From NCBI GenBank assembly GCA_026545225.1, contig CM048847.1, positions 10,224,501 through 10,288,500 on the forward strand: a stretch of 64,000 bases of DNA, written 5' to 3'. Below are positions 573 through 63,643 of the stretch, piece by piece. The stretch's first letter is position 1. Every line of letters begins with the position of its first letter. The position numbers and the translations under genes are program-made. The notes beneath the pieces are model-generated. The model was not told the origin of the DNA and made no database searches. It saw only the letters and a list, made by a program, of their open reading frames with translations. This stretch comes from Cornus controversa (Eukaryota > Streptophyta > Magnoliopsida > Cornales > Cornaceae).

Positions 573-2089
573 TGTTACCCAAGTGTTGACCCTAGAGGGG
601 GGGGGGGGGGGGAGGGTGAATAGGGTCAATGGCAAACTATGACAAATTTTCACTAATTTAAATTATAAGAACAAATCTAAATAAAAGCAATAGTGAAATG
701 AGAAAATTGAAATTGATGTACAAAGATTAAGAGAGAGAGTTAGAGAGAATCAAACACAAGTGACGCAAGATGTAGCGTGGTTCGGAATCCCCTACTCTAT
801 GACTCAAGATCTCTCTTGAGATTTTTTCAAATCCACTAAGACTTCTTCTTTCGGGTGGAGAGCAAACCTTTACAATGAAGCTTACAAGCTTCTTCCTTCT
901 CTTACTAAGTGAAGTCCTTCACCTAGTCTTCTAGGGTTTAAACCAACCCTTTACAATAAATGAGAGGAAGATTGAAGTACAATAAATGATATATCTCAAA
1001 GATAAATGCTCAAGTTTTAGCTCATACTATAGCAATAAATGAATCTCAAGTTTGAAGCTCAAATCTTTGTTTCAAGAGGATGAAATGAGTAAATGATGAT
1101 CAAGAAGTGTATGATTGGTGTCTCTTACTCATAAATGCAGAAAAAGACTCAGATATATGGTCTATTTCAAAAATATAGCTGTTGGAGGTGGTTGGGCAAC
1201 ATTAAATGTAATAAAATAGCCATTCAGATCTGTTTTCGTAAAGTCAGTCGACTTATGCATTTGAATTAATCAACTGATTTACCTCTCTGAAAATGCCTAA
1301 AACATTCTGTCTAAATTAGTCGACTGATAGATGTGTATTAGTCGACTGATAGAAAGACTTTTCTTTGAAATAATTCAAGTCATAAGTCGACTGATGTTTT
1401 TGAATTAGTCGACTGATTTACCCTTCTAGAAATGCCAAAAATGCTCTGTCTAAATTAATTGACTGATAGAAGGAAATAAGTCGACTGATCAAAAATACTT
1501 TTCTCAAAAATTATTTCAAGGCATAAGTTGACTGATGCATTTGAATTAGTCAATTGGTTTACCTCTCTAGAAATGTCAAAACTGCTTTGTCCAAAGTGAA
1601 TAAGTTGACTGATTTATGTTCAACATTAAAAAAACAAATTTTTGACATCCAAACAAAGCCTAAAACATTAAGGACTTCAAAGATGTGATTCAATGTGATC
1701 AAGTCCTATTCTTAAGAGGCTAAGGACCAATATGAAATATAAGAATGATATGCACATGATTTTAAAAACTTGTTTTTGAGAAATTGAGCTTCAAGCAAGA
1801 TATTCAAATAAGCTTTACAAAATTACCTAATCTCTCACCATTTCCTAACTACCCCAATTCTTCTTTGATTGACATGATTCTTCAAGTTTGATGTGCCAAC
1901 TTCATTTCAATGGGATGAGTTCTTTTGATCATATCATCTTCAATGATTTATCCTCATTGTGAATACTATCTTGAATAGATCATTATTCTAAGCAATCACT
2001 TAATAAAAATGTTAGAACCTAACATCATTAATGATTTGTTTTCATCAAAATTACAAGATTGCCCTTTGGTTAAAACCTTTGGGTCAACA
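573..2089 (-). repeat. 3' LTR of the SIRE-like element
   Basis: This 1517-bp copy matches 10657-12139 along its whole length with scattered substitutions and small indels. It starts TGTT and ends AACA, so the termini are inverted. A run of about 17 G at 597-612 is expanded relative to the 7-G run in the other copy. A word array at 1246-1620 lies upstream, in transcription sense, of a TATA-like stretch near 1175. Confidence 0.93.
1246..1620. repeat. AGTCGACT word array in the SIRE LTR
   Basis: At least ten copies of TAGTCGACTGAT or AAGTCGACTGAT, some decayed by C-to-T type changes (AATCAACTGAT, AGTTGACTGAT), fill this stretch. They come in pairs 22 bp apart start to start, for example AGTC at 1246/1268, 1318/1340 and 1385/1407. 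The core AGTCGACT is a perfect palindrome. The second LTR has the same array at about 11282-11665. Confidence 0.85.
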
Positions 2090-2090
2090 A

Positions 2091-2103
2091 TCTCCCTCTT
2101 TTT
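2091..2103 (-). other. polypurine tract next to the 3' LTR
   Basis: On the minus strand AAAAAGAGGGAGA directly precedes the LTR start TGTTGACCC. This is the expected plus-strand priming site for reverse transcription and fixes the element's orientation. Confidence 0.85.
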
Positions 2104-2220
2104 GATGATGACGAAACATTGATGTGTTCAAGCAAAGTTTGGAGTGCATTCAAAGATGCTCCCCCTATCAATATGCAAAATATGAACACAATATGACAAA
2201 TAAAGCATATTTCTATATAA

Positions 2221-2880
2221 TCATGCTTTTAAACAATAATTCAAATGAAATTCACAATCATAAGTGTAATAATGTTGAAAATCTCCCTTTGGAATGTTGA
2301 AAATGAGTCTCAATTCTTCAGTCGTGAGAGAAATTTCTTTCCCCTTAACATAGGAGATAAGAGTGTTTTCGTTTCTCTCTTCCTCTTCCAAATGTGCATA
2401 GAAAATCTTAACCAATCTAGAATATTGAACTTTGTCCAGAGTGACAAAGTTTCCCCAACCTATTGCATGAAAATAGTTGAAAGTGTTTAACTGAAGATCG
2501 GCACAAGTGATGGGTGAGACAATTTTACCTTTCTCAATAATGCGATTTGCAAACTTGTGGTTATATCTCATTTAGTAGATGTCATTTCGGAAGAGGGGAG
2601 GAGGAATTGGCTGCGGTGGTGGCTCCGAAAAGTGAGATGACTTTCCTTCGTTTCAACGTTTTTGGCGCCGTTCAGAGTTGTCGTCCTCAGAGCCGACATT
2701 TCTGTCGGAGTGTGGTCTTCTTCCTAGGGTTCTTGGAGGTATGGTGGATGATAGAAGTAACGAGATGGTGGGTGAGTTGCAGTGAGAGGAGAAGAAGAAG
2801 GTTCAGATGGGAGAGGCTGAGACGAAGCGTCGCGAAGACAACGAAGAGATCGACTTATGGATCGATCGATGAAGGACAAT
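2221..2880 (-). pseudogene. extra (env-position) ORF of the SIRE-like element, decayed
   Basis: The open part (2221-2571, 116 residues) reads on the minus strand and includes YSRLVKIFYAHLEEEERNEN. The piece RLVKxFYxxL is shared with the extra ORFs of both Athila elements here (31349-32572 and 55554-56780). This matches the domain usually labelled 'putative plant transposon protein'. A stop sits directly before the ATG at 2571. Upstream, to about 2880, lies a Ser/Pro-rich stretch in other frames that probably encoded the N-terminus. It lies between RNase H and the 3' LTR in sense orientation, where SIRE elements carry an env-like gene. I see no clear signal peptide or membrane segment, so an envelope role is not supported. 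Its function is unknown. Confidence 0.6.
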
Positions 2881-2889
2881 GTATATATA
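2881..2889 (-). promoter_or_regulatory. TATA-like box ahead of the extra ORF
   Basis: TATATATAC on the minus strand lies between the internal word array (2966-3060) and the extra ORF. The layout copies that of the LTR, where the words also precede a TATA-like sequence. A real internal promoter is inferred, not shown. Confidence 0.35.
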
Positions 2890-2965
2890 GATATGCGCAA
2901 GTCAGTTAACTAATGGTAAATGATAAGTTACCTTATTTCATGAATCGTCACCATTATTGAATGAT

Positions 2966-3060
2966 CAGTCGACTTACGGTAAGTAATAAGTCGACTGTTT
3001 TGAATAAAACAGTCACTAAACCTCTATTAGTCGATGGTGAGATGGAATAAGTCGACTTAT
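2966..3060. repeat. internal AGTCGACT word array
   Basis: Four copies of the SIRE LTR word occur between the end of pol and the extra ORF. AGTC starts at 2967 and 2989 (22 bp) and at 3029 and 3050 (21 bp). They are outside the LTRs and so are a second, separate array of the same word in one element. Confidence 0.8.
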
Positions 3061-3089
3061 GCTGCCAAAAAAAGAGATTTGTGCTAAAA

Positions 3090-3893
3090 TTATAAACTTT
3101 TCACCTCACAAGCACTAGTCATACCAATTTCTCTTCTAATTGTGCAAAATCGATCTTCTTGAAGAGGTTTAGTGAGAATATCAGCTAATTATTTTTTGGT
3201 ATTAACAAACACAAGCTCGATATCTCCTTTAGACACATGATCTCTCAAGAAATGATGTCTAATGTGTTGTATTAGATTTTTGGAAATACATATAGCACTT
3301 ATATTATCACATCTAATGGGTATGTGATCAAATGTAAGTCCAAAATCCTCAAGTTGTTGTTTGATGTAGAGTGTTTGTGCACAACAACTACTAGCTGCCA
3401 CGTATTCGTCTTTCACCATTGACAAAGCTACGGAGTTTTGTTTCTTGCTTGACCATTGTACAAGGAAGTGTCCTAGGAAGTGACAAGTGCCACTTGTGCT
3501 TTTTCTATCCACTTTGCATCCAGCAAAGTCAGCATTCGAATAACTTATGAGGTCAAATGATGTATTCCTAGGAAACCAAAGTCCCAAATCAATAGTGCCA
3601 CTCAAGTATTTAAAAATTCGTTTAATGACACTTAAATGAGATTCTTTGGGGCATGATTGGAATTTTGCACATAAGCAAACACTAAACATAATGCTCGGTC
3701 TACTTGCCGTTAAGTACAAAAGACTTCCAATCATTCCTCTATATTTCTTGATATCAACATCTTTCCCTGTTTCATCCTTATCAAGTTTAGAGGCATTACT
3801 CATAGGAGTTTTTGCGTGTTTGACATCCTCCAAGCCAAATTTCTTTAGCAAATCTTTAATATATTTAGATTGGCAAATGAATATACCATCCAA
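3090..3893 (-). pseudogene. copia RNase H domain, decayed
   Basis: The frame encodes the C-terminal part of copia Pol: the RT-RNase H connection (GMIGSLLYLTASRP), then RNase H motifs (DRKSTSG, SSKKQNSVALS, DEYVAASSCCAQ, IRHHFLRDHVSKGDIEL). RNase H removes the RNA strand during reverse transcription in virus-like particles. An in-frame TAA interrupts the frame at about 3186-3188; the frame continues with LADILTKPL and ends at a TAA at 3090-3092. A short in-frame deletion has removed the residues normally found between NLIQH and IRHHF. The first codon in the open frame is TTG, and upstream the RT core is missing. Confidence 0.88.
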
Positions 3894-4047
3894 TGATTGT
3901 TTGATTTCTAATTATAACTCCCGACTCATCCTTTTTATTCCTATAAACCCATTTGGTTCATATGACGGTTTGATCTTTGGGTCTAAGAACTAAATTCCAA
4001 AATTGATTCCTTTCAAATTGGTTTAGTTCTTCTTGCATAACTAAAAT
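3894..4047 (-). pseudogene. N-terminal RT remnant with core deleted
   Basis: Translation on the minus strand gives the usual copia lead-in to RT (MQEELNQFERN, then TKWVYRNKKDES) with two in-frame stops at positions that are normally Trp and Gly. It then jumps directly into KQSLDGIF of the connection domain. The palm with its YVDD motif is absent from the whole element, so this copy cannot encode an active polymerase. Confidence 0.8.
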
Positions 4048-5065
4048 CTATGACTCATCATTTTCGGCCTCATGTATATTCTTTGCCTCTATTTGAGACA
4101 CAAAGGCCAAATGATCACACATATCTTTAAGAGAGGATCTAGTATTAACTCCTTTAGAAGGGTCACCTATAACTTGGTCAAGTGGATGATAAGGAATGAC
4201 TCTTTGACTTTTTGGAAGAGAGTTATGTATGTCATTTTGAGTGTGTTCCTCTTTAGAAGCATTTTCTTGTGACTCATCAATGGTGGACTCTTTCGATTTT
4301 TTAACTAACGTAAGTTCATCAACATTCTTTTCAAGTTCAATCACTTCATCATCCAAATCTTGCCTTCGGGTAGGTATATGAGATTCATCAAATACTACAT
4401 GTATTGATTCTTCAACCACTAATGTTCTCTTGTTGAAAATTCTATAGGCTTTACTTTTGGATAAGTATCTTAGGAAAACACCTGCATTGAATTTAGCATC
4501 GAAGTTTTCTAAGTTGTCCTTGTCATTCAATACAAAACATTTGCACCCAAAAACCTTGAAATACCCTATATTTGACTTATGACCATTCCAAAGCTCATAA
4601 GGGATTTTATCAAGCTTCTTTCTAATGATGACTCTATTTATAACATAGCAAGAGATGCTAACGGCTTCAGCCCAAAAGTGTCTAGGCAACTTAGGTTCAT
4701 TGAGTATTGTTCTAGCCATCTCTTGGAGGGATCTATTTTTCCTTTCAACGACCCGTTTTGTTGAGGAGTTCTAGGAGCTAAAAAATTATGATCATAACCA
4801 TTATCATCACAAAATTTTTCAATGTCACGGTTATCAAATTCTCTACCACTATCACTTCTAATACTCTTAATTAGGGATGACAATTTTGTCCGCCCCGTCG
4901 GGTTTTGGCCTCGTCCCGCCTCGTTTAGGACGGGTATGTGAGCTATTTTTTTTCTGTAGGGGTGGGTTTGGGAAAGAAAATCAAAACCCGCCGCGGGTAC
5001 AGGGTGGGTTTGGGACTCTATAATAACCCACCCCGCCTCGCCTATATATTTTATTATTATAAATA

Positions 5066-5101
<36 letters not shown>

Positions 5102-5790
5102 AATTATAATTTTACTTTTGGTTGTATTAAAACTTATGTTTTCATTTTATCTTTTTGTTATATTAACACTTATTTAATTGTTGGATCAAACTTGTTACTA
5201 AGTTATTTAGTTGTGAAATATATTTTCTATAATAGGCTATTTAATTGTAGAATCTTTTTATTTTACTTTTTAAACAAGGGTTATACTATTTTGAATTTAA
5301 TAGTATCAAACTTGGTACTACTCACTAGGCTCGCATTTTTTGAAAAAATTAATTTTTATTGATGTTTGATGTGGTTAGGAGAGGGACCCCGCCTCGTCCG
5401 TCTCGTCCCGCCCCTTTTGAAATTTTAAACGGGGCGGGGTGGGGATGGGGTGGGGTTTCTCCCAACGGGGCGGGGATGGGTTTTGAAATTCTGTCCCGTT
5501 TCAAACCCGTGGCGGGTTTGGTAATAATGTTGAAGGTAGCGGGGCGGGGACGGGTTTAGGCAAACCCGTGCCGTACCCGCCCCGTTGCCATCCCTACTCT
5601 TAATCCTATATTCTTTCTCATTTTGGACTGTTTTACAAAACTTAGAGAAAATGACATGTGTCTCATTCTTATGAGCAAGAAAGAATACCCAAGTAAGCCC
5701 AATGAAATCATCTACAATCACAAATGGATAAAGTTTTCCTCCTAAGCTAACAATTCTATCTAGACCGAAGAGGTCCATATGAAGCAATTC
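4048..5790 (-). pseudogene. copia integrase, split by a hAT MITE
   Basis: The catalytic core starts at HMDLFGLDRIVSLGGK (about 5780, first Asp), continues to EKEYRIKS at about 5606, is interrupted by 4872-5596, then resumes with IRSDSGREFDNRDIEKF (second Asp) and APRTPQQNG. One G is missing in the G run after QQN (about 4757), which shifts the frame just before the expected catalytic Glu. The C-terminal part is open at 4048-4719 (MARTILNEPKLPRHFWAEAV, VFGCKCFVLNDKDNLENFD, then an acidic hinge toward RT). Integrase joins the cDNA to chromosomal DNA. This copy is inactive. Confidence 0.87.
4872..5596. mobile_element. non-autonomous hAT element (MITE), 725 bp
   Basis: It starts TAGGGATGACAA and ends with the inverse of TAGGGATGGCAA, and is flanked by the perfect 8-bp duplication CTCTTAAT (4864-4871 and 5597-5604). 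Termini and duplication length are typical of hAT transposons. The inner ends are GC-rich (GGGGCGGG-type runs), and the centre is AT-rich with a TA microsatellite at about 5065-5098. No transposase is encoded. It interrupts the copia integrase. Confidence 0.95.
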
Positions 5791-6718
5791 TAGAGGTCTT
5801 GATGTAGTGATATCCTTCTTCTTTTTGAAGGAAGACTTGATTTGTTTGCCTAATTGGCAAGCACCACAAGTTGTCCTTAGTAAACTTAGTCTTTGGGAGG
5901 CCTTTGACTAAGTCCTTTTTGGACAATTTTGATATCAAGTCCATGCTTGCATGTCCTAATATTCTATGTCATAACCAACTATTGTCACTAGAGGAGATAA
6001 AACATTTAACATTTTGATCAAGTAAGTCACATAAAAGGATGGTGTACAAATTACCATTTCTATATGCAACAAAAATTTGACGATCATCTTTTTCAACAAT
6101 GCAATGACCGGATCTAAATGTAACATTAAAACCTTTAACACATAGTTGACTAATGCTAAATAAGTTATGCTTTAAACCATTAACAAGAAATACATTATCA
6201 ATAGATAAGGAAGGAGATATACATATGGTCCCGACGCCAACAATTTTACCTTTAGAGTTGTCTCCAAACGTGACATTTCCTTCATCATAAGGCTTGAGAG
6301 AAGAGAATTTGGAGCGATTTCTCGTCATGTGTCTTAAGCAATCACTGTCAAGAAACTACTTGTCCTTGGAACTAGAGGAGGATTTCAAGCATACCTACAA
6401 GGCAAGTTTAAGTGACTTTTTTTGGTACTCAAACCATTTTGGGTCCAATTGGGTTAGTAATCATAGAAAAATTTTCTTTTGGAACCCAAACCATTTTTGT
6501 CAACTTTCTTTTTCTAAAAGGACAAGAGAATATTTTGTGTCTACTTTTCCTACAAAGATTGCATATAGAATCGAAAAAGTTGAGTTGAGAACTTTTGACA
6601 AAGAAATGCTTCAAAGGTTTTAGCTTATCAATTTTAGAATAGGATTTTTTGATCAAAGACTTTTATTTATCAAATAGATTATATCCAATTCCTTCTTTGT
6701 CATAAACATCCCTTTGTC
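5756..6718 (-). pseudogene. copia protease and pre-integrase region, decayed
   Basis: The open part 5969-6328 encodes SKFSSLKPYDEGNVTFGDNS, then DNVFLVNGLKHNLFSISQLC, the region after the aspartic protease active site. Just upstream (about 6328-6360) the active site reads FLDSD rather than the usual DSG triad, and a stop replaces the residue before it. At 5756-5944 is the pre-integrase stretch (MDLISKLSKKDLVKGLPK), shifted in frame at its end. At 6429-6656 is the basic linker (LTKMVWVPK). The frame upstream reaches DVYDKEGIGYN at about 6700 before it is cut by the solo LTR. Confidence 0.82.
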
Positions 6719-6722
6719 TTCC

Positions 6723-9151
6723 TGTGGAAACCGTGCCCAAATTTGGCCATTTTTTTAATTTTTGTCATTTATTGCTTTAAATGTATTTTAAATGATATTT
6801 AACATGTTTTGAATGTGAGGAACATGTTTAGAGGGTTGGAATATAGTTTTGAAAAGTTTTGACAACTTTTGAAAAGGTTTAACTTTTTGGTCAAATCGAG
6901 GCTCGGGATGCGAATTAAGTGGGTCCGGAAAATCCAAAAAATTTTACTTTTGGTTATGAACTAAATGGAATGTTTAGAGTGTTAAGGAAGTGATTTCGAG
7001 TCCAACGGAGTTTTCGGTAATTAATTCCGAGGTTGGGAAGGTACATTAAGTGGTCGGGGGTAAAATGGTCATTTTGCACCCCTAGGGTTGAGATAAATAT
7101 AAAAAAAGGTCTGAGATATTTCATTTTACAGATCTCTCTCTCGCTACCTCTCCCACTTCATCTCTCTCTTTTCTCTCTAGATTCTACGTCACTTGAGGTG
7201 TGATTTGAAAGAATCCGAAGAAGGAAAGTGTGTAGAGGGCATTGAGGGCTTCGGGTTGAACCGATCAAAGTCTCCATTTCGTAAAGTTGAAAAAGTTAGG
7301 ATTTCTCAAAGTTGGATTCAAAGCATAGGATTTGAGGTAGGGGTGCTAGACTCATCTTTAGTGTGATTCTATAGGTCACATATTTGTGACATGAAAGATA
7401 GGTTGAGATTTCTTAAGTTTAGGGGTTTGTGAATTTGTATATATATATATGTGTGTGTGTGTGTGACTTATGTATATGTATATGTCTAACATGCTAGTTA
7501 TGGCTCATATGTGTTGCATCTGTGATATTGAGACTATATATGCAAATTGTTGAAATTGTGTTCAATTGGTGAAAATGCATGAATCTGAGTTTTTATATAA
7601 AATGATATATGAAAGATATAATTTTCTTGAAAATTGCATAAACATGATGATTTTCATGAGGTGAGTGAGATAACATTATGACATGTTTGATTTGAGGAAT
7701 AAAATGCATTGATTTGATAAAATGCATTTCATTGTGTGGGATATGTGCATTATGTGATAACATGCACTATGTGACGAGTTTTGGGGCAGGAGTGTAAGAA
7801 ATTAAGATAAGGGCATGGATCCCTAGGGTGAAAGACCCAAAACTTGGCCAAGCGAGTGTCGCATCCGTCGGAATAGTGAACTGAGAAGCATAATCGGGGT
7901 TTGGGTGCCAATGGGACCCTTACTATTGATTTAATTTGATTTGAGCGATCCTTTGATTTGATTTCTGGACTTATGTGGTGTGAGTTATACATTGAATTGT
8001 GACTTGCTCAATTTGCTCCATGTATGTATACATTGGAATGTGAAGCATCATGCATGATTTATAAAATGTGATTATTTATGGGTAAAAAGCACGGATATTT
8101 GTCATATAGATTGTAATGATTTCATATGCATCCATGCATGGCCACTTGAGTTAGAGTGGAGTTGGGTGGATCATTCCTACTGAGCCGCAGTGGTGCTCAC
8201 CCCCTATTTATATAAATTTTTCAGATAAGGCCCCAATGGAGGATGAAGCATGAATAGCTCAATGGACCTTATTGAGTTTCATTTTTGGACTTTTGACCTT
8301 TTGATATGTAGATAGATGTCCACGCCAGCTTGTGGCAACTGGACTAGATTGAAAGCTTTGTATTTACATTTGATTCATGTTAGTGTACTTTAGTTTCAAA
8401 TGTAATGTTCATATATGGATCATATGGGATTTGTGGATTTTGAATGGAAGAATGTTGGGTTGAATTCCATTGCATATGTTTATGGATATGATTGAATGAA
8501 GTTTTGTTTTTATTATGTTAAAACATGTTTTAAATGATGATTAGAATGTGGTTGGATTAGTTTTGTATTGTAGAAGTGGTTATATGTGAGTCATGGGGTA
8601 AATTTTGGTCAAAATTGTGAAAAATGGAGTTTCCAGGTTGAATAAGTCGACTAATTCCTTTCTATAAGTCGATTGATTTGGACAGTGTGCTTTAGAGCTT
8701 TCTAGAGCAGCAAATAAGTCGACTGATTCATTCAATAAGTCGACTTATTCACTTATAAGTCGACTGACTCCTTTCTATAAGTCGAGTAAAGCAGATTTTC
8801 AAAATCTTGAAATAGGCATAACTTGGTCGTTTCAAACCCGAATCAAGCGATTCTTTTTTTAAAATTGAGTATTTTGAAATCCTCTATCCAATAGTGAGGG
8901 TTTCAACACCAATTTCTAGTCACACGGGGAGTTGAGTTCTGAAAACTTTGGAGTTATGCTATTATAGCTTGGTATGAGGCTCTTTAGGGTTTGTTGTGGT
9001 TGAGGTTGACTTAGCACCTTCTTGTGCAAGAAAGAGTTAAGTTTTTGCAGTAATTAAGAATATGGATAGTTCATTAGTGATTGATGAGGTGATGTGGCGA
9101 GATGAGAATCAAGTCACCCTTGGTTTTCGGGGAACGGAAATCGGGGCGTGA
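6723..9151 (+). mobile_element. solo LTR of a gypsy (Tekay/Del-like) element
   Basis: The 2.4-kb unit starts TGTGGAAACC and ends GGGGCGTGA. Flanks CTTCC (6718-6722) and CTTTC (9152-9156) differ by one base and probably are the target duplication. Removing the unit restores continuity of the copia frame between the gag coiled coil and the linker before protease. It has a TATA-like box near 7097, a CT-rich 5' leader at 7130-7170 and a GGTGCTCACCCC...TTTTTCAGAT block near 8190-8225 seen in plant gypsy LTRs. No coding sequence is present. The lineage is inferred from LTR style only. Confidence 0.75.
8645..8787. repeat. AAGTCGACT word array in the gypsy solo LTR
   Basis: Six copies of ATAAGTCGACTGAT or close variants occur near the 3' end of the LTR. 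AGTC starts at 8645 and 8667 (22 bp), then 8717, 8738, 8758 and 8780 (21, 20, 22 bp). The word is the same as in the SIRE copia LTR, but the sequence around it is unrelated. Here the array lies downstream of the TATA-like box. Confidence 0.85.
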
Positions 9152-10607
9152 CTTTCAAAGAGAATAGTTAAGTTCTTTCTCCCTTTAGTGAATTTTGCAA
9201 GAATCTCAATTTGATCCTCAACAACTTTCTTCAAGTTTTCATTTTCAATTTGGAGTTCAATTGAGGAGGTTTCTTTTGAAGATGTATCTCTTTCTTTCTT
9301 GAAAGAATCATTTTCCATTTGAACTTTAGAAAGCTCAAGTAAAGAAGAATCTTTTTCCTTTTTCAATAAAATGTTTTTATTTTGAACTTTAGAAAGTTCA
9401 AGTGAAAAAGATGAGATTTTTTGTTTAAGAGATGAGTTTTTTAAAATCACCTTTTCAAGTTCTTATGCAAATCTTCAAAAGTATCTTGCAATTCATTATA
9501 GGAAAAAGAAGACTCAATTGAAAACTCAAGATTATAATCTACCTCATCCTCGATTGCCACAAGGTAAATGTTGGCAACTTCGTCATTATCACAATCCGAG
9601 TCGCTTGAGTCGGAATCATCCCATGTTGCCTTCATTGCCTTTTTCTTTTGCTTATTTTCTTTATCTCTTTTGTACTTAGAGTAATCGGTTTTGAAATGTC
9701 CCGGCTTTCCACAATAAAAGCAAGTGGGTGGTTCCTTTTTGCTTGACTCACATTTGGATTCATTTCTCTTGAAAGGTCTCTTTTTGAAGAGATGTTCTTT
9801 CCTCATGATTTTTTTGAACTTGTTAGAGATGAAAGAGCAAGTTCATCTTCATCAATGCTAACGTCTTTATCATCTTCCTCATTGACTTCTTGAATTGAAG
9901 TCTTTAGAGCCATGCTCTTCTTTTGCTCGGGCTTTTCTTGATGATTTTTCATCTTGATTTCATGAGTCATGAGAGATCCTATGAGGTCTTCAAGACTTAA
10001 TGTATTGAGATCTTTTGCTTCCGAGATAGCGGTAGCCTTTGCATCCCAACTTGTGGGTAGGCACCAAAGAATTTTCTCCACATTGTCGGAAGTAGAGTAA
10101 TTCCTACCAAGATGAGATAAACTATTAATAATGTTAGTGAATCGAGTAAACATCTCACCAATGGTTTCATTTGGTTCCATCTTAAAGAGCTCATACTCGC
10201 GAATTAACATGCTCACTTTGGTGGCTCTAACTTGCTTAGTGCCTTCATAGGTCACTTCAAGTTTGTCCCAAATCTCTTTGGCGGACTTACAAGCTAAAAT
10301 TCTATTGAATTCAGATTTGCTTAAAGCACTATACAAATTTGTAACGACTTTAGCATTGACTTGAACAAGTTTTCGGTCATTGTCATTATATTCATGCAAG
10401 TCTTTTGGAACTCTTAGACCTTTTTTTGATTTTCATGGAAACTAAGGATCCGTCACAAACAACTTTCCAAACTTGGTAGTCAATAGATTGAAGAAACCAT
10501 ATCATTTTAGGTTTCCAATGGCTATAGTCGGTTCTATCAAACCAAGGTGGCCTATTGTTGGATTGACCTTCTACATGAGATGGTCCTTTCATATTTGTCA
10601 TGATCAA
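9152..10607 (-). pseudogene. copia gag (capsid and zinc knuckle), decayed
   Basis: The N-terminus is open at 10392-10607 (FDRTDYSHWKPKMIWFLQSI), then capsid at 9803-10399 (KSAKEIWDKLEVTYEGTKQV, typical copia UBN2-type gag). At 9447-9806 there is a nucleocapsid zinc knuckle CFYCGKPGHFKTDY, whose last ligand is Tyr instead of Cys. At 9109-9450 a heptad-rich Lys/Glu coiled coil follows. Gag forms the virus-like particle and binds genomic RNA. Frameshifts near 10395, 9805 and 9448 break the gene. The 3' end is cut at 9152 by the solo LTR. Confidence 0.88.
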
Positions 10608-10642
10608 ACTCTAAGACGATTAAGTCCTATTCAAGAGTCCTA

Positions 10643-10654
10643 GCTCTGATACCA
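10643..10654 (-). other. primer-binding site for initiator tRNA-Met
   Basis: The minus strand reads TGGTATCAGAGC two bases after the 5' LTR end. This is the standard copia first-strand primer site, complementary to the 3' end of tRNA-iMet. Confidence 0.95.
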
Positions 10655-10656
10655 AT

Positions 10657-52039: not shown

Positions 52040-52682
52040 GCAAACAGAGATTAAATCCAAATATGAAAATGTTGTAATAAAGGAGGTTATGAAATTGCTA
52101 GATGCGGAAATCATTTACCCCATCTCAGATAGCAAGTGGGTTAGCCCCACTTAAGTGGTACCTAAGAAATCAGGCATCACTGTGCAACCAAATGACAAGG
52201 GTGAGTTAATTCCTCAGTGCACCACCATAGGATGGAGAGTGTGCATAGATTATATGAAACTTAACTTAGCAACTAGGAAAGATCATTTTTCACTCCTATT
52301 CATCGATCAAATCCTAGAGAGGCTAGCAGGTCAAAGCTTCTATTATTTTCTAGATGGATATTCCGGCTATAATCAAGTGGCTATAGACCCGAGAGACCAA
52401 GAGAAAACCACTTTCACATGTCCATTCGGTACATTCGCCTATAGACGCATGCCTTTTGGGTTATGCAATGCACCTGCAACGTTTCATGGTGTATGGTGTC
52501 TATCTTTTCTGACATGGTGGAAAACGTTTTGGAAGTGTTCATGGATGATTTCTCTGTCTTTAGACCTTCATTTGAATCTTGTCTCCATAATCTATCCCAT
52601 GTTCTTACACGATGTCAAGAGACAAATCTCATCCTCAGTTGAGAAAAGAGCCATTTTATGGTTCAAGAAGGCCTTGTCCTAG
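52040..52682 (+). pseudogene. Athila reverse transcriptase, decayed
   Basis: Fingers and palm motifs are visible: WRVCIDYMKLNLATRKDHF, FYYFLDGYSGYNQVAI, TFACPFGTFAYRRMPFGLCN-type region (here TFTCPFGTFAY). A frameshift at about 52490 precedes the catalytic FMDD, which lies in another frame at 52538-52549. A stop (TGA, at about 52640) and the return of frame at 52658 follow. RT copies the element's RNA into DNA in the cytoplasmic particle. This copy is inactive. Confidence 0.88.
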
Positions 52683-54700: not shown

Positions 54701-54863
54701 AACGTCAAGCCATAGACGTACAATGTGGCACAACCATGGTTGCTATCATGCACCCATGAAGTCCCTATAATCCAAAGCAAATTTGTATCTAAGTGCTGAA
54801 AAATTAGAGTCAAGTAATCATCAAATAAAGTGTTCAAAAAAAAAATTATTTCTACAATCCCAT

Positions 54864-55018
54864 TTCGATTGTGCGAAATTCGCACTTCGCACAATCGAGA
54901 TTTGGAGGAAAAATTAAGAGATTCTGCAGAGTGCAAAGTCCCGAGAGGTGAGTTCCTTCGATTGCACTTCGAACAATCGAAATCTCGATTGTGCGAAATT
55001 CACATTTCACACAATCAA
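54864..55018. repeat. internal TCGATTGTGCGA word array
   Basis: Words start at 54864 and 54886 (22 bp), then 54958, 54969, 54985 and 55007 (11, 16, 22 bp). It is the same word as in this element's LTRs. The array lies between integrase and the extra ORF and is followed at about 55047 by a TATA-like GTATATATTTT. Confidence 0.88.
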
Positions 55019-55046
55019 AAAAGGCACGAGCGCAGCACATGCACTT

Positions 55047-55057
55047 ACGTATATATT
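55047..55057 (+). promoter_or_regulatory. TATA-like box after the internal word array
   Basis: ACGTATATATTTTG lies about 30 bp past the last word and 500 bp before the extra ORF. The order word array, TATA, leader repeats that of the LTR. Whether a promoter exists is inference. Confidence 0.35.
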
Positions 55058-55553
55058 TTGAACCCACCCCTTCACCATTATTTCTTCCTACCCCTTACGA
55101 CCCATGCACTCCTCCCCTTCGTCTGAACACCCACCACCATCATCTCAGGATCTTCCCTTCTCACTCAACCACCCCCATCCATCATCCGACTAGAGCCAAC
55201 CTCCTTGGACGCGCACCCACGAAGGGAGACCACTTCGGGACTCATCTTTTCATGTGGCTAGAGCTTCCACTTCGGGTAATTTAAATCCATGCTATTTACT
55301 AGACTTTGTCCACCTTTCAGATTGGATTGCATGATGTTAAGTTTGAGTAGAGTTATTGTTAAGCAACTTTGTGGGTGATTTTGGGGCATATGAATGGAGT
55401 GGATACCTTACCATGGTTAGAATAGTTTCGGGGTGAGGAGAGTTCATGTTCTGTATGGACAGTGATAGGGTGCTTTGAGCATGTTCTTGGATTCCATATT
55501 TTGATGCCGTGTCTTAGAATAGATTTTGTGTAAATTACAGGCAGTAAAGGGGT

Positions 55554-56780
55554 ATGCCTCGTGTGAAGAATCCCGGTATCCAGATTCAAGATGTATTGGG
55601 TAGAGCTTGGCGCACTCGGGGATTTCATCCCGAGCATATTTTTGACCCCGTGGAGTTTGAGACGCGTCGTGACACATCATGGGCTGTGGCAGAGCTACGG
55701 CGACGCCAGCTTGATAGACTGCTCCAACTGTCATCCGACATCGCATATAGTAGGCTGGTGCAGGTCTTTTATGAGCATATGATGTACTCATGCACCTTGC
55801 CCGGTACTCTACAGACTGTGGTGGGAGTTACTACGATCACCATCACGGTGAGTCAGATTGCCCAGCTCATAGGCCGCCCACACCTACAGCCTCCGGATAT
55901 GGTCGACCAGGATGGCCGTCCGCTCTTCAGGGAGTTCCTCTCATCAGACACCACCGTGTTCTCCATGGTCATGGATATGTGCAATGGGGAGTTTACCACC
56001 CCCAATCAAAATTGCACAAGTAAATCCATGTGCTCGACGGACTTATGGTTCTTGGATACCATCCTTATCAAGAACGCATGTCCTTTAGGACATGTGGCGG
56101 AGCACCGGGGTGACCTTCTTCACTGCTTATATGTAGCCCATACTGGCACATGATTTTTTGTCCCATCGCTCAATTAGGGGCAAATGTATAAAGTGTGGGA
56201 CACTTTGTTCCGGAAGACGAACAAGAGAGCTGCTACTTGGTAGCTGCCGTTCCCATACTTGGTCATGGCCTTTCTTTGGGAGGCCAATATCCCCTTCAGT
56301 ACTACGGACATCCAGATAGGACTGCCTCCCCATTTCCAGCACACTCACTAGGTACGGGTCCGTAGGCATCTAGACCAGCAGCAGCACCAGGGGCAGGAGA
56401 GTGAGGCCATGGACATGGAGGATCCCTTTGCATTGGTAGATGAGGACGAGCCTATAGAGAGTGAGCCCTCGGATGTGGTGGTGGAGGAGGATTCAACTGG
56501 TCTGAGCCATGAGCAGTTTGATATATTGGCCACCGGATACTCCTGTCTGGCGACAGATGTAGAGAGGCTGTAGCAGGGTTTTGACAAGCACGTTCGGGTG
56601 ACTAAGACCCAGATAGCTGCCATGAGAGGGGATATTATATCTCTGACTTAGGGTCAGAGAGCATTGATTGATGAGTTTTGGCCATTCTGACAGGACCTCC
56701 GGACTATGTTGCATGGTCCGGTTGCCACTTCGACTTCTGCACCACCCACCGAGCCCCTCCCCCACCACTCACCCTGGATT
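55554..56780 (+). pseudogene. extra ORF of the pol-bearing Athila
   Basis: The first 199 residues are open: MPRVKNPGIQIQDVLGRAWR, AYSRLVQVFYEHMM, TDLWFLDTILIKNACPLGHV, HRGDLLHCLYVAHTGT. Beyond the stop at 56151 the frame continues with several stops through an acidic stretch (MDMEDPFALVDEDEP) and a helical end to about 56780. The domain is of the same type as 31349-32572 and 2221-2571. A possible acceptor site (TTACAG, 55536-55541) just before the ATG would allow a spliced subgenomic RNA. Function is unknown. Confidence 0.72.
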
Positions 56781-58580
56781 AGTTTAGCATTTTTCTATTT
56801 TATTTTCAATTTTAGTTCTGTATTTATTTTCAATAGGCCATGTAGGCCATGTCTTCGGATTTTATTTTATGTATTCCATCATTTCACTTTGTACTGAACA
56901 TGTTTTGCGCATTTATGGAATGCAGCTTGGATTTAATTATAATTTTTATTCACTGTATTTCTTTTACATTTAGCAACAAGACCGCTGTCACCAATGCTCT
57001 GACTATGTATGTAGTACCAATTTACTAATTGGCATATGCACGATACAGTTGATAATTTCCTTTTATTAAAGCCTGGTTTCAATTCCCAATACTGTTGAGA
57101 TTGCTTCAACACAGTATGGCTTTAATAAAGAAAGGCAGCCCCTTTGCATACTATACGTTAGTATGCCTGGATAATCAATATCTTATCGCATATGCCTCTT
57201 AGCAAATTGGGAGCCACCAGTTCAGAGTTTAGAATGAAGCTTAAAGATGCTAAAAATCATAATCATAATCATACAAATAAATCAATGTGGTTGCATAATT
57301 GCTTTATCTTTTTATTTTTTTTATTTTCATTTATTTACTTTTTGTTCCCCCGTAATGCTCGTGGTATACAGTTGATGATCCATGCAGGTTTTGCTACTCA
57401 CGTGGCCCACTGCTCATAATTCACTGCTGTTTCTATCAAGAACCGCTTTCCCGGTAATTTTGTTCCTTTCTCTTCTCTTCAAATCATTGCGGACAATGTT
57501 TGATTTAAGTTTGGGGCTATGCGGTATACCACGTGCATATGCTTGCAACTGTTCAACTCTTTTGTTTCTTATTGACGTTGTAATACAATTTTGTCCATTT
57601 TTGTCATGATGTCTGGTTTTATAAGGGAAGACTATCCCAATAAATGTTCGAGGCAAATGCAGCAGGTAATTAGGAGCTTTGGGCAGTGTAAATACCCTTA
57701 CTTTTGCAAGTTATCTATTAGGTTAGAATGGTCCACATTTTTGTTCAATTGTGAATATGGTACAATTCTTACCCTAAATTTGTCCTTAACAGCACAAACT
57801 AGCACACATGCATTTTAAGTTGTGGGGTATAAGTCTGATGGAGAATTTTGTAAATTTCTATTTTTATTAGAATGACTTAGAGAATGTGTCTTCCGGTTCT
57901 TCAAATTTAAAAAAAAAAAGGAGAAAAATTTGCGCAATAAGCCTTCTCACTCAATAAATCGGGTCTCTGTGCCTCATGAAGCATAGAGTATTCGCGTATA
58001 AGTGTGTAAGGTTGAGTCATAATGAAGCGGGTGGCTTTTTAAGCTCATCGCCTTGAAAGCTCGGCTATTAAGTCTTAAGGGTGTCTTTTCACCTAATGCC
58101 CTAAAATCGTTTGATTTGGGAGTCATTGACCCAACACCGCTACATGGGCTTTCAAGAAAGCAAAAAGAGTTTAAGCATTGCACAGTCATCCACACACAAG
58201 CATTCATGCATGCTTCGCGGTAATGAACCACAGTGTCGCGCTTTCTATGAGTTTTTCTTCTAAAAATAGATGTGTCCTTGTATTCTCCAACTATGATGAT
58301 AAGTCACACGTTAGAATGGATGTTCACTTTTCAAAGAGGATTTTAAGGTTGGCGTTGATATTTTTGTCCAAATTGACCATTATGTGGGGACTGTCATCTA
58401 ACTCTAGTTTGCAAAGGTTCATTTTTGTTAAATGTCCACATAGCTCCATAATACTTGCTACATTTGTCAGGCATGAGATTAATGGGTAATCATCCCTTAT
58501 CTAGTTAATGACTGATAAATAATCCATTTTTGCATAAGTTAGTTCATTTTATTCTGCATTGCTAAGGGACTAGCAATATG
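56781..58580 (+). other. 3' untranslated region of the pol-bearing Athila
   Basis: It is noncoding, with a T-rich first part and AAGTTTGGGG-like tracts (57506, 58580). The block 57955-58190 matches 33440-33690 of the other Athila, including a hairpin CTCTGTGC/GCATAGAG around CTCATGAA. Confidence 0.7.
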
Positions 58581-58581
58581 T

Positions 58582-58592
58582 AAGTTTGGGGG
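58582..58592 (+). other. polypurine tract of the pol-bearing Athila
   Basis: AAGTTTGGGGG directly precedes the 3' LTR start TGATAAGCG (58595). Confidence 0.85.
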
Positions 58593-58594
58593 TG

Positions 58595-60347
58595 TGATAA
58601 GCGTTAAATGTTGCACATTGTAAGAAGTTGACTTCCAGTCCTACTTGAAGCAGGAATGTACTACGATAAGCTTCCAGTCCTACTTGAAGCTCGCTTAAGC
58701 CCATCCTTCAGGCTCCTTAAAAAGAGTATCCCTCTCTCGGCTCTAATGCATGTATGGCTTGCCCAAGAAAATTAGGTTAGTCAAAACAACTAGCAACAAG
58801 ACAAGAGCCGCAAAGTAGACAACAAGCAATAGCTTCTCAGCCCCCTAACCTTTCTATTATATTAGTCAAGGGCTAGCGCACCCCTTTCTCTAATAATAAG
58901 GTAAGCTTTGAAGCTGGCTGCTCTGCTATACTATACTAGTTGTAGGGCGCTAGCGCTTTACTAATTCTAATATCAAGTATAGGGGAAAGCCTTCTTAATT
59001 GCATATGTTGATTCTGTATTTATGTTCACCTTGGTATTTTTATGCTATTTTTGTATTTTTATTGAATATTAGGTTTTGTCCCAAAAAGGGCAATGTTTCC
59101 GATCAAATGCTGACGAAGTGAAGAAATTCATGAAGGCATTTTGCACAATCGAGATGATGATTTCGTACAATCGAAATCTCAATTGTGCGAAACTTCAATT
59201 TTGCATGATCAAAATCTCAATTGTGCGAAACTTCAATTTTGCACAATCGAGATTCTGCAGACTACAAGTTGGCCACTTGTCCACTTGTCTTGCCACTTGC
59301 ATCCATGAATGACCTTTGCACGTCCTTTGGAAGGATTTTTTGACTTCAAAGAGACATATGAAGGGGACATATATATATCTTAGGTGGATTATATAGATAT
59401 ATAGGCAAGGTGGGACCCAAGGACACTAGTGGATGGATATATGCATGTTTTTGAGGAAAAAAGAGAAGACTTGGAGAGGAGGAGAGAGAAAAATGTTGAA
59501 CCAGACCTTTGGAGCTTCATATCTCTGGCCATGGAGGATTGTAAGTCTCCTATGATCAACTAACTTTCCATCTAGGGTGTGGTTGAACCCCCTAGCCATT
59601 TAACTTATTCATTTTATAGCAACTTTGGGATCCATATGTATATGTTGATTACCTAGCCTAGTATTTTGTGCAATATTTGTGAAGCTCTTTAATATATTCA
59701 TTTGATATTATTTCTTCATCTTGTCTTAGAATAGAAATATTTCATTTTGAATGCTCAACATTTACAACTTTCACAAAAAAATGTAAATGATGGCTTTGTA
59801 ATGGTTTTTAATGGAATGTGATGTTTCTTGCTTATATAGCCCATGCCAAGATAACGTAGTTCAGACACAAGTAGGTACATTTAGAAGGTAGAATAAGTAG
59901 ATAGGTTGAAGGACTATGCTTGTTAAAGATGGGCTATGTTTAGTTTGAAATCATATTTATCTTTTGATATGTCATTATAGGCCACAAGCCTAATGACATT
60001 GTGTTACATATACTTATAGAAGATCCCATTTGCTACATACGTGGACTTGTCAATTGGCTAGAGGTGGAAACCACCCCTAGTTCTCTCTTTCTCAACTTTA
60101 TAAAATTCTTACTTTTAATGTTCTTACATTCTATAAAGTAGTGTTAAATTCAAATAAAAAATTTTATTTTTAGGATTAAATTGAAAATTCTCTCTCAATA
60201 GTGCAATTCACCCACGTACTCCTCGTGGGATCGATACCCTCTATAAAGAACTGTATCTACAAAGATTCGTTCTCTTGTGAGTGGTTTAAATTATATTTTG
60301 ATAGGCAATAGTAAGCTACAAAAATAAAGATAAATTTGGCCACATCA
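58595..60347 (+). repeat. 3' LTR of the pol-bearing Athila, with insert
   Basis: It matches 48083-49452 apart from a 367-bp insertion after 24 bases (58620-58986) and a longer word array. Words start at 59141, 59163, 59179, 59201, 59217 and 59239, spacing 22, 16, 22, 16, 22 bp; the 5' LTR has four words. One 38-bp word unit was therefore gained or lost after insertion, or the copies differ by template. Confidence 0.92.
58620..58986. other. foreign insert in the LTR, probably organellar DNA
   Basis: The stretch is absent from the 5' LTR, interrupts ...GCACATT/AAGCC... without a target duplication and loses one T. Its style differs from the surroundings: GGGCTAGCGCACCCC, AGGGCGCTAGCGCTTT, CAACAAGACAAGAGCCGC. 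This resembles plant mitochondrial intergenic DNA. A 20-bp motif (CTTCCAGTCCTACTTGAAGC) occurs twice at its left end. Origin is judged by style only. Confidence 0.45.
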
Positions 60348-60352
60348 GTAGG

Positions 60353-61403
60353 GGCCTGAGAATGACCTTCGATATAGTTGGTTGTTGATGATGATGTACT
60401 TAGTCACTTTCATCCTTAGCTTTCATGCCTCAACTTTCTGCTCCAAAAGGACTCCAATTTTAAGGTATCTCACTATAGGATCCATCCAGCTTGGCTTCCT
60501 GGAGATAGTTAATGTTTCTTGGCAGTTACATGTGCTCAGGCTATCTGGAGTGTCCACCATTACTATTCTAGTGAATGATTCATCTGTGTGAGATGTCGAG
60601 ATGGCTAACTGGTCAGCTTCCTCATTCTGTTCTCTAGGGATGTGGTAGAATTGAATTCGATTAAAATTTTTGCCCTTCGTAGTCACCAACTCTTTGTATA
60701 TATTCCTTTTTTCCTCTTTCGAATGATATTCACCTTTTACCTATTTTATAATTAGCAATGAGTCGCTAAAGACTATTAAATCTTTTACCTACAACATTTT
60801 TGTGAATCATAGACCTACTATAAGTGTTTCATATTTGGTTTCATTATTTGATGCTTAGAATTCAAGTTTAATAGCGTGCTGGAGTTTCGTCCCTTCGGGA
60901 GTTCTGATTTTGATTCCTATTCCTACCCCCATTTTTCCTAAGGATCCATCGACATACACTTCCCAGCACGGCTCTGTTGGTTGTTCTTCTTCAACTTTTG
61001 GTTCGTATTCTAAATTGAAGTTCGCAATGACTTGGCATTTTTTTGACGTTCGGGGCTCGATGTCAAAAACTCCAAGTTCTGTAGCCCACTTTATGGCTCT
61101 ACTGGATACATCCAGTTTGCTACGAATTGCTCTTAAAGGCAATGTGGTGGGCACGATTATAGAGTGAGACTCAAAGTAATGCCTCAACTTCTTTTTTGCA
61201 TGCACCAGGGCCAAGATAAATCTCTCTGCTTTCTTGTACCTGCGTTCAGTATCAGTCATAGTTTTGCTAGAATAGAACATGAGGAACTGTTTATTACATT
61301 CCTCCCTAGCCAATGCAGCACTAGTTATTGCTCGTGACACGGCTAAGTAGAAGAATAGTGGTTTTTGATCAATAGGGACAGAGAGAACCAATGGATTTTG
61401 CAT
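60353..61403 (-). pseudogene. Tat dual RNase H region
   Basis: On the minus strand: first RNase H (MQNPLVLSVPIDQKPLFFYL, FYSSKTMTDTERRYKKAERF, LVHAKKKLRHYFESH), then a linker, then a second RNase H starting WEVYVDGSLGKMGVGIGIKI. Remnants continue (FYHIPREQNEEADQLA, 60620-60660) to the Athila insertion point. Two RNase H domains in series are a hallmark of Tat elements. Frame breaks lie near 60855 and 60700. Confidence 0.85.
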
Positions 61404-62279
61404 ATATTCCTTCAGCCTCCTGAGGGCCTCTTTTTGCTCTAGACCCTATAATTGTCCACCTTTTTTTTGAATTGCGTCGAAGAATGGCTTACATCTATCC
61501 GAAAGATGGGAGATGAACCTACAGAGGGTCGCGATGCGTCTGATCAACACTTGAATTTCTCTCTAAGAGTTGGGCTCTACATTGTGTACTAATGCTAAGG
61601 CTCGTGCCGAATTTGCTTTAATCCCCGTTCGGCTAACTGTGCGTTTCATGAATTGTCCCGATGAAACCCCGAATGTGTATTTGAGTGGGTTTAGCCTCAT
61701 ATTGTGATTCCTCAAGGTGTCAAAAACTTCCTGCAGGTGCATTAAATGATCTTCTTTCTTAAGCTTTTAACCACCATGTCATCTATGTAGGCTTCGATCG
61801 TTCGTCCCATTTTCTTCTTAAACACTCTGTTTATCATCCGTTGGTATGTGGCTCTTGCATTTTTTTAACCCGAATGGCATCACCTTGTAACAGTAGGTTC
61901 CACCTTCAGTGATGAAGGATGTTTTTTTCTTCATCTTCGGGATTCATCAGGATCTGGTTATATCTTGAGTATGCATATAAGAATGTTAACCTTTCATAGC
62001 CCGCGGTCACGTATACCATTTGATTTATTTTTTGTAAGGGGTAGTAATCTTTCAGGCAAGCTTTCTTCAGATTGGTGAAGTCAATGCACACCTGCCATTT
62101 TTCGTTCTTTTTTCTGACCACTACTACATTGGAGAGCTAGTCCAGATATCGTACTTCCCTGATGAATCCTGCCTCGAATAGACATTTTACTTCCTATGCT
62201 ATGATTTTATTTCTCTTGAGTGAGAACCTTCTTTGCCTTTGCTTCGCAGGAGGAATCATTGGATTTACATTTAGGTTGT
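61404..62279 (-). pseudogene. Tat reverse transcriptase, decayed
   Basis: Reading the minus strand: FIREVRYLD, then VRKKNEKWQVCIDFTNLKKA and YYPLQKINQM (fingers and palm start), YAYSRYNQILMNPEDEEK, and the catalytic AYIDDMVVKS at about 61770-61795. Several stops and frame changes lie between. The upstream part (PPAKQRQRRFSLKRNKIIA) runs to 62279, where a solo LTR cuts it. Confidence 0.85.
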
Positions 62280-63643
62280 TGATAAGTGTTCAATTCTATG
62301 CATTTGAACCCTCTTTATTGCATATGTTAGTCCCGTTTCTACGTTTACTGAGATATGTTTACGGTATTTTTGTGTTTTTGATGTATTGCAGGTCTTGTAG
62401 TAAAAGGAGCAAAATTTGAGACTTTTTGCAACTGAAGAGAAAAGTCAAAATTGCAGCCAAGGCATCTCGATCAATTGAGATGTTGATCTCGATCAATCGA
62501 GATCTCGATTGATCGAGATTCTGCAGAGCCACTTACCCACTTGCTCACCTGCTCTCCCACTTGCAACAAAATCCCCCTTTTTGCACGACTTAGAGGGATT
62601 GTCTGACTTGAACAAGACCTTTGGGGACCTTCTTGATATAGGTGGTATATATATTGATATATATATATATATATATGGTGGGCCCCAAGGTTGAAAAGGA
62701 GGCCATAAAGCACAAAAAGAGGCCATTTCTCACATATCTCTCACACACATCATATTACACATAGAGAGACATTCGGGAGAGAAGAAGAAGGAGCTGAACC
62801 AGACCTTGAAGCTCCAATTTCTTCATCAATGGAAGAGTGCAAGGCAGCCATGAGCAACTAACTTCTCTACTAGGGTGTTGGTGAAACCCCTAGCCATGTA
62901 AACTTGTTCATTTTTGTAGCATTTTGGGATTTGTAATTAAATGTTGATTATCTAGTCTAGTGACAATGTACACTTATACATTTCTTATATATATTCATTT
63001 GAAGTGGAGTTTATTCTTGTCTTAGAGTAGATTTTGTCATATGAATGCACAACATTTGCATATTCCACAAGAAATGCAAATGATGGCTAGGTAATGGTAC
63101 TTTAAATGAATGTGTAGTGCTTGCTTGTATAAACCATGCCAAGATAAGGTAGTTTGGATGCATGTAGGTTCACTTAGAGAGTAGGGTAATTAGGTAGTTA
63201 GTTAGGTTGAAGAGCTATGCTTATTGAAGATGGATTATGATAGGTTGACACACACATTAATCTTTTTATATGTCATTGAGGTCACAAGCCTAATGACATT
63301 GTTAGGCATCTAATTTATGAATCCCAAGCTTGCTACACTTATGAATATGTGAATGGCTAGTGGTGGAAACCACCCATAGTTCTCTCTCCCAACCTTTACT
63401 CTTTAAATTTATTGTCATTACATTCATGCAATAGTTTTATAAACAAAACTCAAAAACCTTATTTTTAGGATTAAAGTGGAAGTAATCTTTCTTTAAGACA
63501 ATTACGACTAGTCCTCGTGGGATCGATACCCTCTATATAGAACCGTATCTACAAAGATTCGTGCTCTTGCGAGTGGTTAAATTATATTTTGATAAAAGGA
63601 GCAAAAATAAGCTTACAATATAATTCAAGTTCCAACCACATCA
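62280..63643 (+). mobile_element. Athila-type solo LTR
   Basis: It starts TGATAAGTGTTCAATTC and ends CCACATCA, with the perfect duplication GTTGT (62275-62279 and 63644-63648). Large parts match the LTR of the element at 48083, e.g. the TAGGGTGTxGxTGAAxCCCCTAGCCAT block. It has a different word in its array. Confidence 0.95.
62467..62516. repeat. TCGATCAATCGA word array in the solo LTR
   Basis: Three words start at 62467, 62489 and 62505, spacing 22 and 16 bp, the third inverted. The flanking GATTCTGCAGA and the CACTTGC-rich stretch are as in the Athila LTR at 48343-48420. Only the word differs. TATA-like repeats follow at about 62647. Confidence 0.9.

Follow-up and report, generated by a model that had tools for sequence, protein, structure and literature searches.

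A 64,000-nucleotide stretch of the Cornus controversa genome (C3:10224501-10288500, within a 771.7-Mb genome of 61 contigs; called the window here) holds long terminal repeat (LTR) retrotransposons of Ty1/copia and Ty3/gypsy type that carry arrays of short, near-palindromic words spaced about 22 bp apart. The arrays lie in two places, within the LTRs and just upstream of an extra open reading frame (ORF) of the PF20167 type. The word in the LTR (or on the 3′ side) equals the word upstream of the extra ORF in all eight elements that show both arrays, with six words represented, and between families the two change together. Judging from sequence, we consider it fairly probable that the arrays are sites for a dimeric sequence-specific DNA-binding protein that would act at two promoters. 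The window elements are a Sirevirus, elements that we take to be of Athila type (Athila1, Athila2 and the LTR of Athila3) and LTR sequence presumably of the Tekay lineage (Table 1). Other loci of the genome bear L numbers.

Matching arrays in LTRs and upstream of the extra ORF

Ten arrays in the window hold the words named in an earlier reading made from the letters alone (the sequence-only reading). All five of those words occur where it had placed them, and the arrays are real, although it had counted seven. It had also described a common design in which a spacing of about 22 bp (23 bp in one family), often with an inverted partner at 16 bp, is kept while the words differ. Indeed, word pairs are mostly 22 bp apart, with 20-21 bp for some AGTCGACT pairs and 23 bp in Athila1, inverted partners stand at 16 bp in Athila2 and Athila3, and similar lags recur with different words in other families. 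Exact direct 8-mer recurrence in the window, taken over all lags from 9 to 60, is topped by lag 22 with 54; the runner-up below lag 38 stands at 19, and lags 38-52 reach 33-35, partly owing to other tandem arrays.

The same pattern is found across the genome. Pairs of TCGATTGATCGA at lags of 16-46 bp number 7116 + 7188 (14,304) in the whole genome, versus 0 for the reversed-word control; the 100 listed pairs all lie within the first 4.6 Mb of contig 1, and their lag is 21-22 in 61 cases, 37-38 in 25 and different again in 14. Exact matches to AAGTCGACTGAT number 516 + 472 genome-wide versus 37 + 36 for the reversed word. A word-blind detector applied to a 200-kb genome sample (20 loci evenly spaced over the first 45 Mb of contig 1) recovered similar arrays in L009, L011, L019, L024 and L027. 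CG-containing recurrent 10-mers peak at lags 16, 20-22, 38 and 41-42, in a profile that draws several of its loci from a single Athila family, whereas non-CG 10-mers lack those peaks. Scans of viral contigs found neither relatives nor a word pair. Chance as the origin of the arrays was rejected by the shuffle, reversed-word and TCGATTGATCGA pair controls.

In both the Sirevirus and Athila2, the 10-mers that LTR and internal region have in common are headed by the array words (12 in common in the Sirevirus versus a mean of 0.38 and a maximum of 2 in shuffles; 10 in Athila2 versus a mean of 0.12 and a maximum of 1). The eight elements with both arrays comprise Athila2, Athila3 at L009/L029, Athila3 at L019, the window Sirevirus, L043/L056, the Sirevirus L049/L054, L051/L055 and L053/L057 (LTR not delimited). 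For the PF20167 loci described below, downstream sides were examined at five of 20, picked after the upstream words were known, and the piece L048/L058 stops short of the expected part, as L032 does. L054, which belongs to the same element as L049, carries TTTCAG...CTGAAA eight times within a Sirevirus-like LTR, at lags of 22 (five times), 49 and 22. L055 has GGACCGGTCC words in 20-bp pairs, as in L051, past a string resembling a polypurine tract; L056 shares AGTCGACT with L043; and in L057, as in L053, the words are GCGCTCGAGCGC, with lags of 22, 22, 47 and 22, 47, 20 in L057. Relatives of Athila2 (L009, L024 and L019) have an internal array at the same place past the integrase, but its word is TCGATTGATCGA, which also forms the LTR arrays of L029 (the element of L009), L019 and the window Athila3 LTR; the LTR array of L024 lies outside the fetched piece.

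A PF20167-type ORF lies downstream of the internal array in all three window elements that have such an array. A genome search for this family returned 4447 first-look candidates, of which 150 were scored, and all of these pass the family cut-off. From them, 20 loci were hand-picked for spread of score and ORF length, including eight that share GGACCGGTCC and nine that align to the window Sirevirus pol, and the 1400 bp upstream of each formed the test set. A near-palindromic CG 8-mer pair at lag 20-23 occurs in 17 of the 20 upstream pieces and in 17 of 140 random pieces (Fisher 5e-11, treating loci as independent of family relatedness), by a measure that was set after the sequences had been seen and when the 20- and 22-bp pairs were known. 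This laxer measure was adopted because a predefined detector misses short or decayed arrays. Thus, the spacing, whose loss in other families the sequence-only reading had named as fatal to its proposal, is retained there. The sharp lags found inside this post hoc measure are stronger evidence than its count, with lags 20, 22, 44 and 49 dominant in 8, 9, 8 and 6 loci, respectively. Because L043 and L044 had been noticed beforehand near AAGTCGACTGAT matches, the loci were also counted without them, and 15 of 18 score positive. The misses are L034, L035 and L042, the last of which has a TG-variant array.

The words upstream of these ORFs include AGTCGACT, GGACCGGTCC in pairs at 20 bp, GCGCTCGAGCGC in L053 and, in L049, four copies of TTTCAGNNNNCTGAAA at 22 bp followed by CTATATATAGC. 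A TATA-like string follows the internal array 87 bp past the last word in the Sirevirus and 43-47 bp past it in Athila2 and Athila3; in Athila2 this is TATATA, 43 bp past the start of the last internal word. An array of putative dimer sites near such a string suggests promoter control.

Conservation, joint turnover and sharing of words

Had words been conserved no more than spacers, the sequence-only reading would likewise have been refuted; in one family, Athila3, they proved better conserved. Among three internal arrays, non-CpG word columns vary in 2 of 110 cases versus 52 of 317 elsewhere (Fisher 1e-5), a column being assigned to the word if any one of the three arrays matched the word there with two mismatches or fewer. 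The CpG columns of the word vary in 13 of 58 cases, as expected because methylated CpG decays. In 12 copies of TTTCAGNNNNCTGAAA (L049 and L054), selected with at most two arm mismatches, a single letter departs among the 144 of the arms, and the central 4 bp are variable. Fixed arms around a variable center read as the signature of two half-sites, a shape usual for sites of dimeric proteins.

The alignment of the Athila2 and Athila3 LTRs runs through the array; direct and inverted copies show the same change in half of the word, and the first spacer differs by one base. The RNase H DNA of L049 is 80-84% identical to that of six Sireviruses with the word AGTCGACT, and this homology ends at 1039-1067, 17-45 bp short of the L049 array at 1084. 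The AGTCGACT-word elements align mutually into the linker at 74-88% (three pairs). The alignment between the LTRs of L054 and L056 stops at L054 position 1617 and resumes at 1845, flanking the array at 1635-1832, and their words differ; beyond the domain, the ORFs of these two share just a 49-bp match. When Athila2 and L009 are compared (the overlapping copies L003, L004, L007 and L008 being omitted from the Athila comparison), identity is 92% in reverse transcriptase, 90% in integrase and 86% in RNase H versus 64.5% in the PF20167 ORF. Such joint change of ORF and word would be expected from a protein evolving with its site, and relaxed constraint on the ORF would explain part of it.

Seven homologous Tekay LTR copies carry five words, in a comparison of which one step covered four of eight word-match loci: TCGATTGATCGA (window and L027), AGTCGACT (window insertion and L005), TTCGATGCATCGAA (L011), TTACGATGCATCGTAA (L033) and TCGATTGTGCGA (L031). 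Athila3, the Sirevirus and Athila2 have three of these as their own words (TCGATTGATCGA, AGTCGACT and TCGATTGTGCGA, respectively). The description of the words as family-specific is therefore only partly right; strict family specificity is rejected, since Tekay LTR copies carry words of other lineages. With the words that we had listed masked, the spacers of the window Tekay insertion resemble those of the Sirevirus LTR (z 9.4), short stretches on the sense strand are common to masked Tekay copies and Athila internal arrays (z 5.4-7.5), and a masked Tekay copy resembles a Sirevirus LTR on the sense strand (z 6.0); 103 cross-lineage spacer pairs were compared, and one antisense pair at z 4.3 marks the noise. 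The shared spacers suggest that array modules have been copied between elements, with the direction being either way. In maize, a Sirevirus palindrome is the commonest motif in structured Helitron regions too (PMC10760457).

Two loci (window 26353/26358; L005 2144/2172, with 75% versus 91% identity on its two sides) have Athila1-type LTRs lodged in a Tekay LTR at an identical junction, which suggests an insertion-site preference.

Elements and other features of the window

Self-comparison of the window yielded three LTR pairs and one further related LTR. The polypurine-tract 8-mer of Sireviruses is present as AGAGGGAG, beginning 10 bp upstream of the 3′ LTR start and differing by one base from AGGGGGAG, which L056 carries. 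The insertion within the Sirevirus is similar to 25552-25679 and to L005, L011 and L031. In L011, the Tekay-type LTR adjoins chromovirus genes, with RVP_2, RVT_1 and SH3_Tf2-1 above the Pfam cut-offs and rve (E 1.1e-4) and Chromo (E 0.0049) below them; in L033, the TGTCACGC LTR end is followed by a sequence resembling a primer-binding site and by gag/reverse transcriptase reading frames. By these contexts, 25186-26353 and part of about 6650-9110 are Tekay-type LTR sequence. The lineage name is one that we assume, taken over from the sequence-only reading rather than based on a tree.

Athila2 has the gene order RVT_1, RT_RNaseH, rve, and then a PF20167-like sense ORF before the 3′ LTR. Athila1 has no match to the reverse transcriptase or integrase of Athila2 and is an element without pol; the word GGATCGATCGCC, previously assigned to Tekay, belongs to this element. 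We take these elements to be Athila because of their extra ORF, overall plan and integrase features rather than from phylogeny. In L027, an uninterrupted frame of 1287 codons (262-4122, minus) matches the window Athila gag-pol and adjoins an Athila1-type LTR.

Three further regions of the window are repetitive. Positions 15615-16853 form a glycine-rich open frame of 96- and 276-bp tandem units with no Pfam match. Two neighboring tandem arrays, one of 42 bp and one of 44 bp and each with its own unit, occupy 46260-47026, and a 68-bp tandem array lies at 20901-21312, within which copies of CATGTCAGGA are 18, 50-52 and 68 bp apart.

Table 1. Retroelement parts and word arrays in the window
Feature	Position	Strand	Remarks
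Sirevirus (Ty1/copia)	573-12141	minus	Sirevirus marks at polypurine tract/LTR junction (cf. PMC2829016)
Sirevirus 3′ LTR	573-2091	minus	88% identity to 10657-12141
Sirevirus 3′ LTR array	1245-1613		AGTCGACT(GAT); 22-bp pairs within 139-bp units
Sirevirus extra ORF piece	2224-2571	minus	PF20167-like, E 5.8e-7, 30 bits, below cut-off of 45
Sirevirus internal array	2964-3060		AGTCGACT; between pol and extra ORF
Insertion with Tekay-type LTR sequence	6650-9110	plus	separates Sirevirus gag from protease; bounds approximate, about 2.4 kb
Array in inserted Tekay LTR	8644-8790		Sirevirus word AGTCGACT
Sirevirus 5′ LTR	10657-12141	minus	from self-comparison
Sirevirus 5′ LTR array	11279-11663		
Tekay LTR part	25186-26353	minus	split by Athila1; TGTCACGC is reverse complement of LTR 3′ end
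Tekay LTR array	25698-25916		TCGATTGATCGA; word starts at lags 22, 60, 22, 59, 22, 22
Athila1	26358-35705	plus	LTRs 98% identical; gag, protease, PF20167 ORF
Athila1 internal array	30791-30897		GATCGATC words, 23-bp pairs, upstream of PF20167 ORF
Athila1 extra ORF	31283-32422	plus	PF20167, E 2e-10, 41.3 bits, below cut-off of 45
Athila2	48109-60347	plus	LTRs 92.5% identical; reverse transcriptase, RNase H, integrase
Athila2 5′ LTR array	48271-48342		TCGATTGTGCGA; lags 22, 16, 22
Athila2 internal array	54865-55018		TCGATTGTGCGA; past integrase, ahead of extra ORF
Athila2 extra ORF	55548-56150	plus	32-35% identity to Athila1 PF20167 ORF; no PF20167 match of its own
Athila2 3′ LTR array	59141-59250		lags 22, 16, 22, 16, 22; one unit degenerate
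Athila3 LTR	62269-63646	plus	68% identity to Athila2 LTR
Athila3 LTR array	62467-62516		same place as in Athila2 LTR

Candidate functions and relation to known systems

A DNA-bound multimer, as the sequence-only reading had proposed, remains our leading interpretation. Because the sites are about two helix turns apart, bound dimers would lie on the same face and be able to cooperate. Given the positions of the arrays, in the LTR and immediately ahead of the extra ORF, binding would activate or de-silence both promoters jointly. The balance of probability leans toward a protein encoded by the element itself rather than by the host. The product of the PF20167 ORF is the first candidate, by analogy with VANC proteins and their VANDAL targets, with a chance that we put somewhat short of even. 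Once a lineage had acquired another ORF with another word, its LTR array would follow, and Tekay LTRs may exploit the factors of the lineages whose words they carry. More tentatively still, one could speculate that self-recognition is general among plant LTR retrotransposons. The env-like PF20167 ORF would encode a dimeric activator or anti-silencer with palindromic sites spaced 20-23 bp at the LTR and at its own promoter, ORF and word would be swapped as a unit, new word-protein pairs would arise repeatedly, and Tekay would pirate the sites of several lineages.

Several observations weigh against the leading interpretation, in addition to the post hoc choice of the lag measure and the noise among the many spacer pairs. 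With the predefined detector, only 5 of the 20 upstream pieces yield CG-word arrays versus 9 of 140 random pieces, and L034 and L035 have a PF20167 ORF with no array upstream. Athila1 combines the ORF with an internal array, yet it has no 10-mers shared between LTR and internal region and no 5′ LTR array. The L056 LTR holds a second word, GATAGAAGACTATC, in pairs at 22 bp, that was not found in L043. Conservation in the LTR arrays goes in the same direction as in the internal ones but is small and not significant (1 of 24 versus 31 of 158; Fisher 0.08). The TATA test is weak (three of four families versus a 26% background, Athila1 being without the string), and the Tekay array seems to lie downstream of the sole TATA-like string spotted by eye. 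Non-CG 10-mers have peaks of their own at lags 32-33 and 58-59, from one tandem array, and the likeness between Tekay insertion and Sirevirus LTR spacers falls to z 3.1 under a wider mask. AlphaFold prediction of the extra ORF, made from three sequences, reached a predicted local distance difference test score of 39, too low to show a DNA-binding fold. Finally, identical words occur in unrelated elements, namely in Tekay LTRs and the Sirevirus (AGTCGACT), Athila3 (TCGATTGATCGA) and Athila2 (TCGATTGTGCGA).

This last observation would also be explained if the words were sites of host transcription factors or of a host chromatin protein, with elements evolving toward different family members and unrelated ones converging. 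The presence of CACGTG and TATTTAA after the three Athila3 internal arrays is likewise in favor of a host factor. However, the spacers flanking the words are partly common to the lineages too, which suggests copying rather than convergence, and word turnover keeps step with the extra ORF region. We therefore regard a host factor as unlikely.

It is less likely again that the words act as RNA, either through transcript hairpins that are diced to small RNAs or because RNA otherwise requires them. Hairpin RNA, raised as an alternative by the sequence-only reading, does draw support from five folded arrays, each of which exceeds nearly all of its dinucleotide shuffles in stability (z -3.6 to -8.6), and small RNAs are reported on palindrome clusters of maize Sireviruses (Bousios 2016 via PMC10760457). 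Nevertheless, any array of palindromic DNA sites would fold likewise, AGTCGACT and GGACCGGTCC themselves lack a loop, and hairpins alone predict neither the 20-23-bp phase nor the agreement between LTR and internal words. Perhaps the hairpins are a by-product that host silencing exploits.

Functionless tandem duplication of a random segment, to which the 139- and 141-bp tandem units around arrays in the Sirevirus LTRs and the likeness of the L051/L055 LTR and internal arrays beyond the word might point, is very improbable and was rejected on the Athila3 internal arrays, where words are conserved and spacers are not; moreover, inverted copies change together, and similar lags recur with different words.

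The sequence-only reading knew of no described system of this kind, but Sirevirus palindromes (PMC2829016) and VANC-target arrays in VANDAL transposons (PMC5735166) are published. Sirevirus RM boxes (Bousios et al. 2010, PMC2829016) are palindromic repeated motifs. As here, one family-specific palindromic word recurs many times within the LTR, and elements that bear an ENV have it also in the linker upstream of that gene. The window Sirevirus arrays belong to this kind. The two LTRs have 8 and 10 detected copies of the motif, where RM boxes call for at least 8, and the array at 2964-3060 lies in the linker upstream of 2224-2571. The CGG-CCG core found in 12 of 13 RM-box elements (Tnd-1 is without it; PMC2829016) is absent from AGTCGACT, and GGACCGGTCC has CCGG. 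RM boxes were called Sirevirus-specific in a comparison among Ty1/copia elements, whereas here Athila-type elements and chromovirus LTRs (Ty3/gypsy) carry arrays as well. The accessible parts of that account make no mention of a 20-23-bp phase; the words here include AGTCGACT and TCGANNNNTCGA, and their turnover is coupled to the PF20167 ORF region. The arrays in gypsy elements, their phase, the link to the ORF and the switching of words are new relative to this precedent. A literature search, with most subscription papers outside its reach, did not find the Athila/Tekay arrays, the 20-23-bp phase or the link between word and PF20167 described, and searching for three word strings gave unrelated matches only.

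The env-like ORFs (PF20167/Transposase_32) of Athila and Sirevirus are, as here, sense ORFs between pol and the 3′ LTR (PMC7264820, PMC11728184), and the PF20167 protein of a sunflower Athila has a predicted nuclear localization signal (PMC11728184). In their accessible parts, these accounts draw no link to binding sites or to an upstream array and leave the role of the ORF in plant retrotransposons unresolved, a question that the arrays make directly testable. Retand TRP28 elements also combine an extra ORF with a putative DNA-binding domain and family-specific tandem repeats between pol and the 3′ LTR, but their ORF is antisense with another domain, and arrays occur in about half of the elements (PMC11963269).

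VANDAL offers a further parallel. Its elements, like those here, carry arrays of short motifs in noncoding DNA that differ among related elements or families, and it is proposed that motif and element-encoded protein evolve together (Hosaka et al. 2017, PMC5735166; EMBO Rep 2023, PMC10398659). However, VANDALs are DNA transposons whose motif, YAGTATTAY, forms arrays of one orientation, in contrast to the near-palindromic pairs here. Binding and methylation loss have been shown for VANC, whereas our case is built from sequence. If each ORF product does recognize the word in its own element, there would be many natural protein-site pairs and an added layer of parasitism among transposons, and the self-recognition known from VANDAL DNA transposons would extend to Ty1/copia and Ty3/gypsy retrotransposons.

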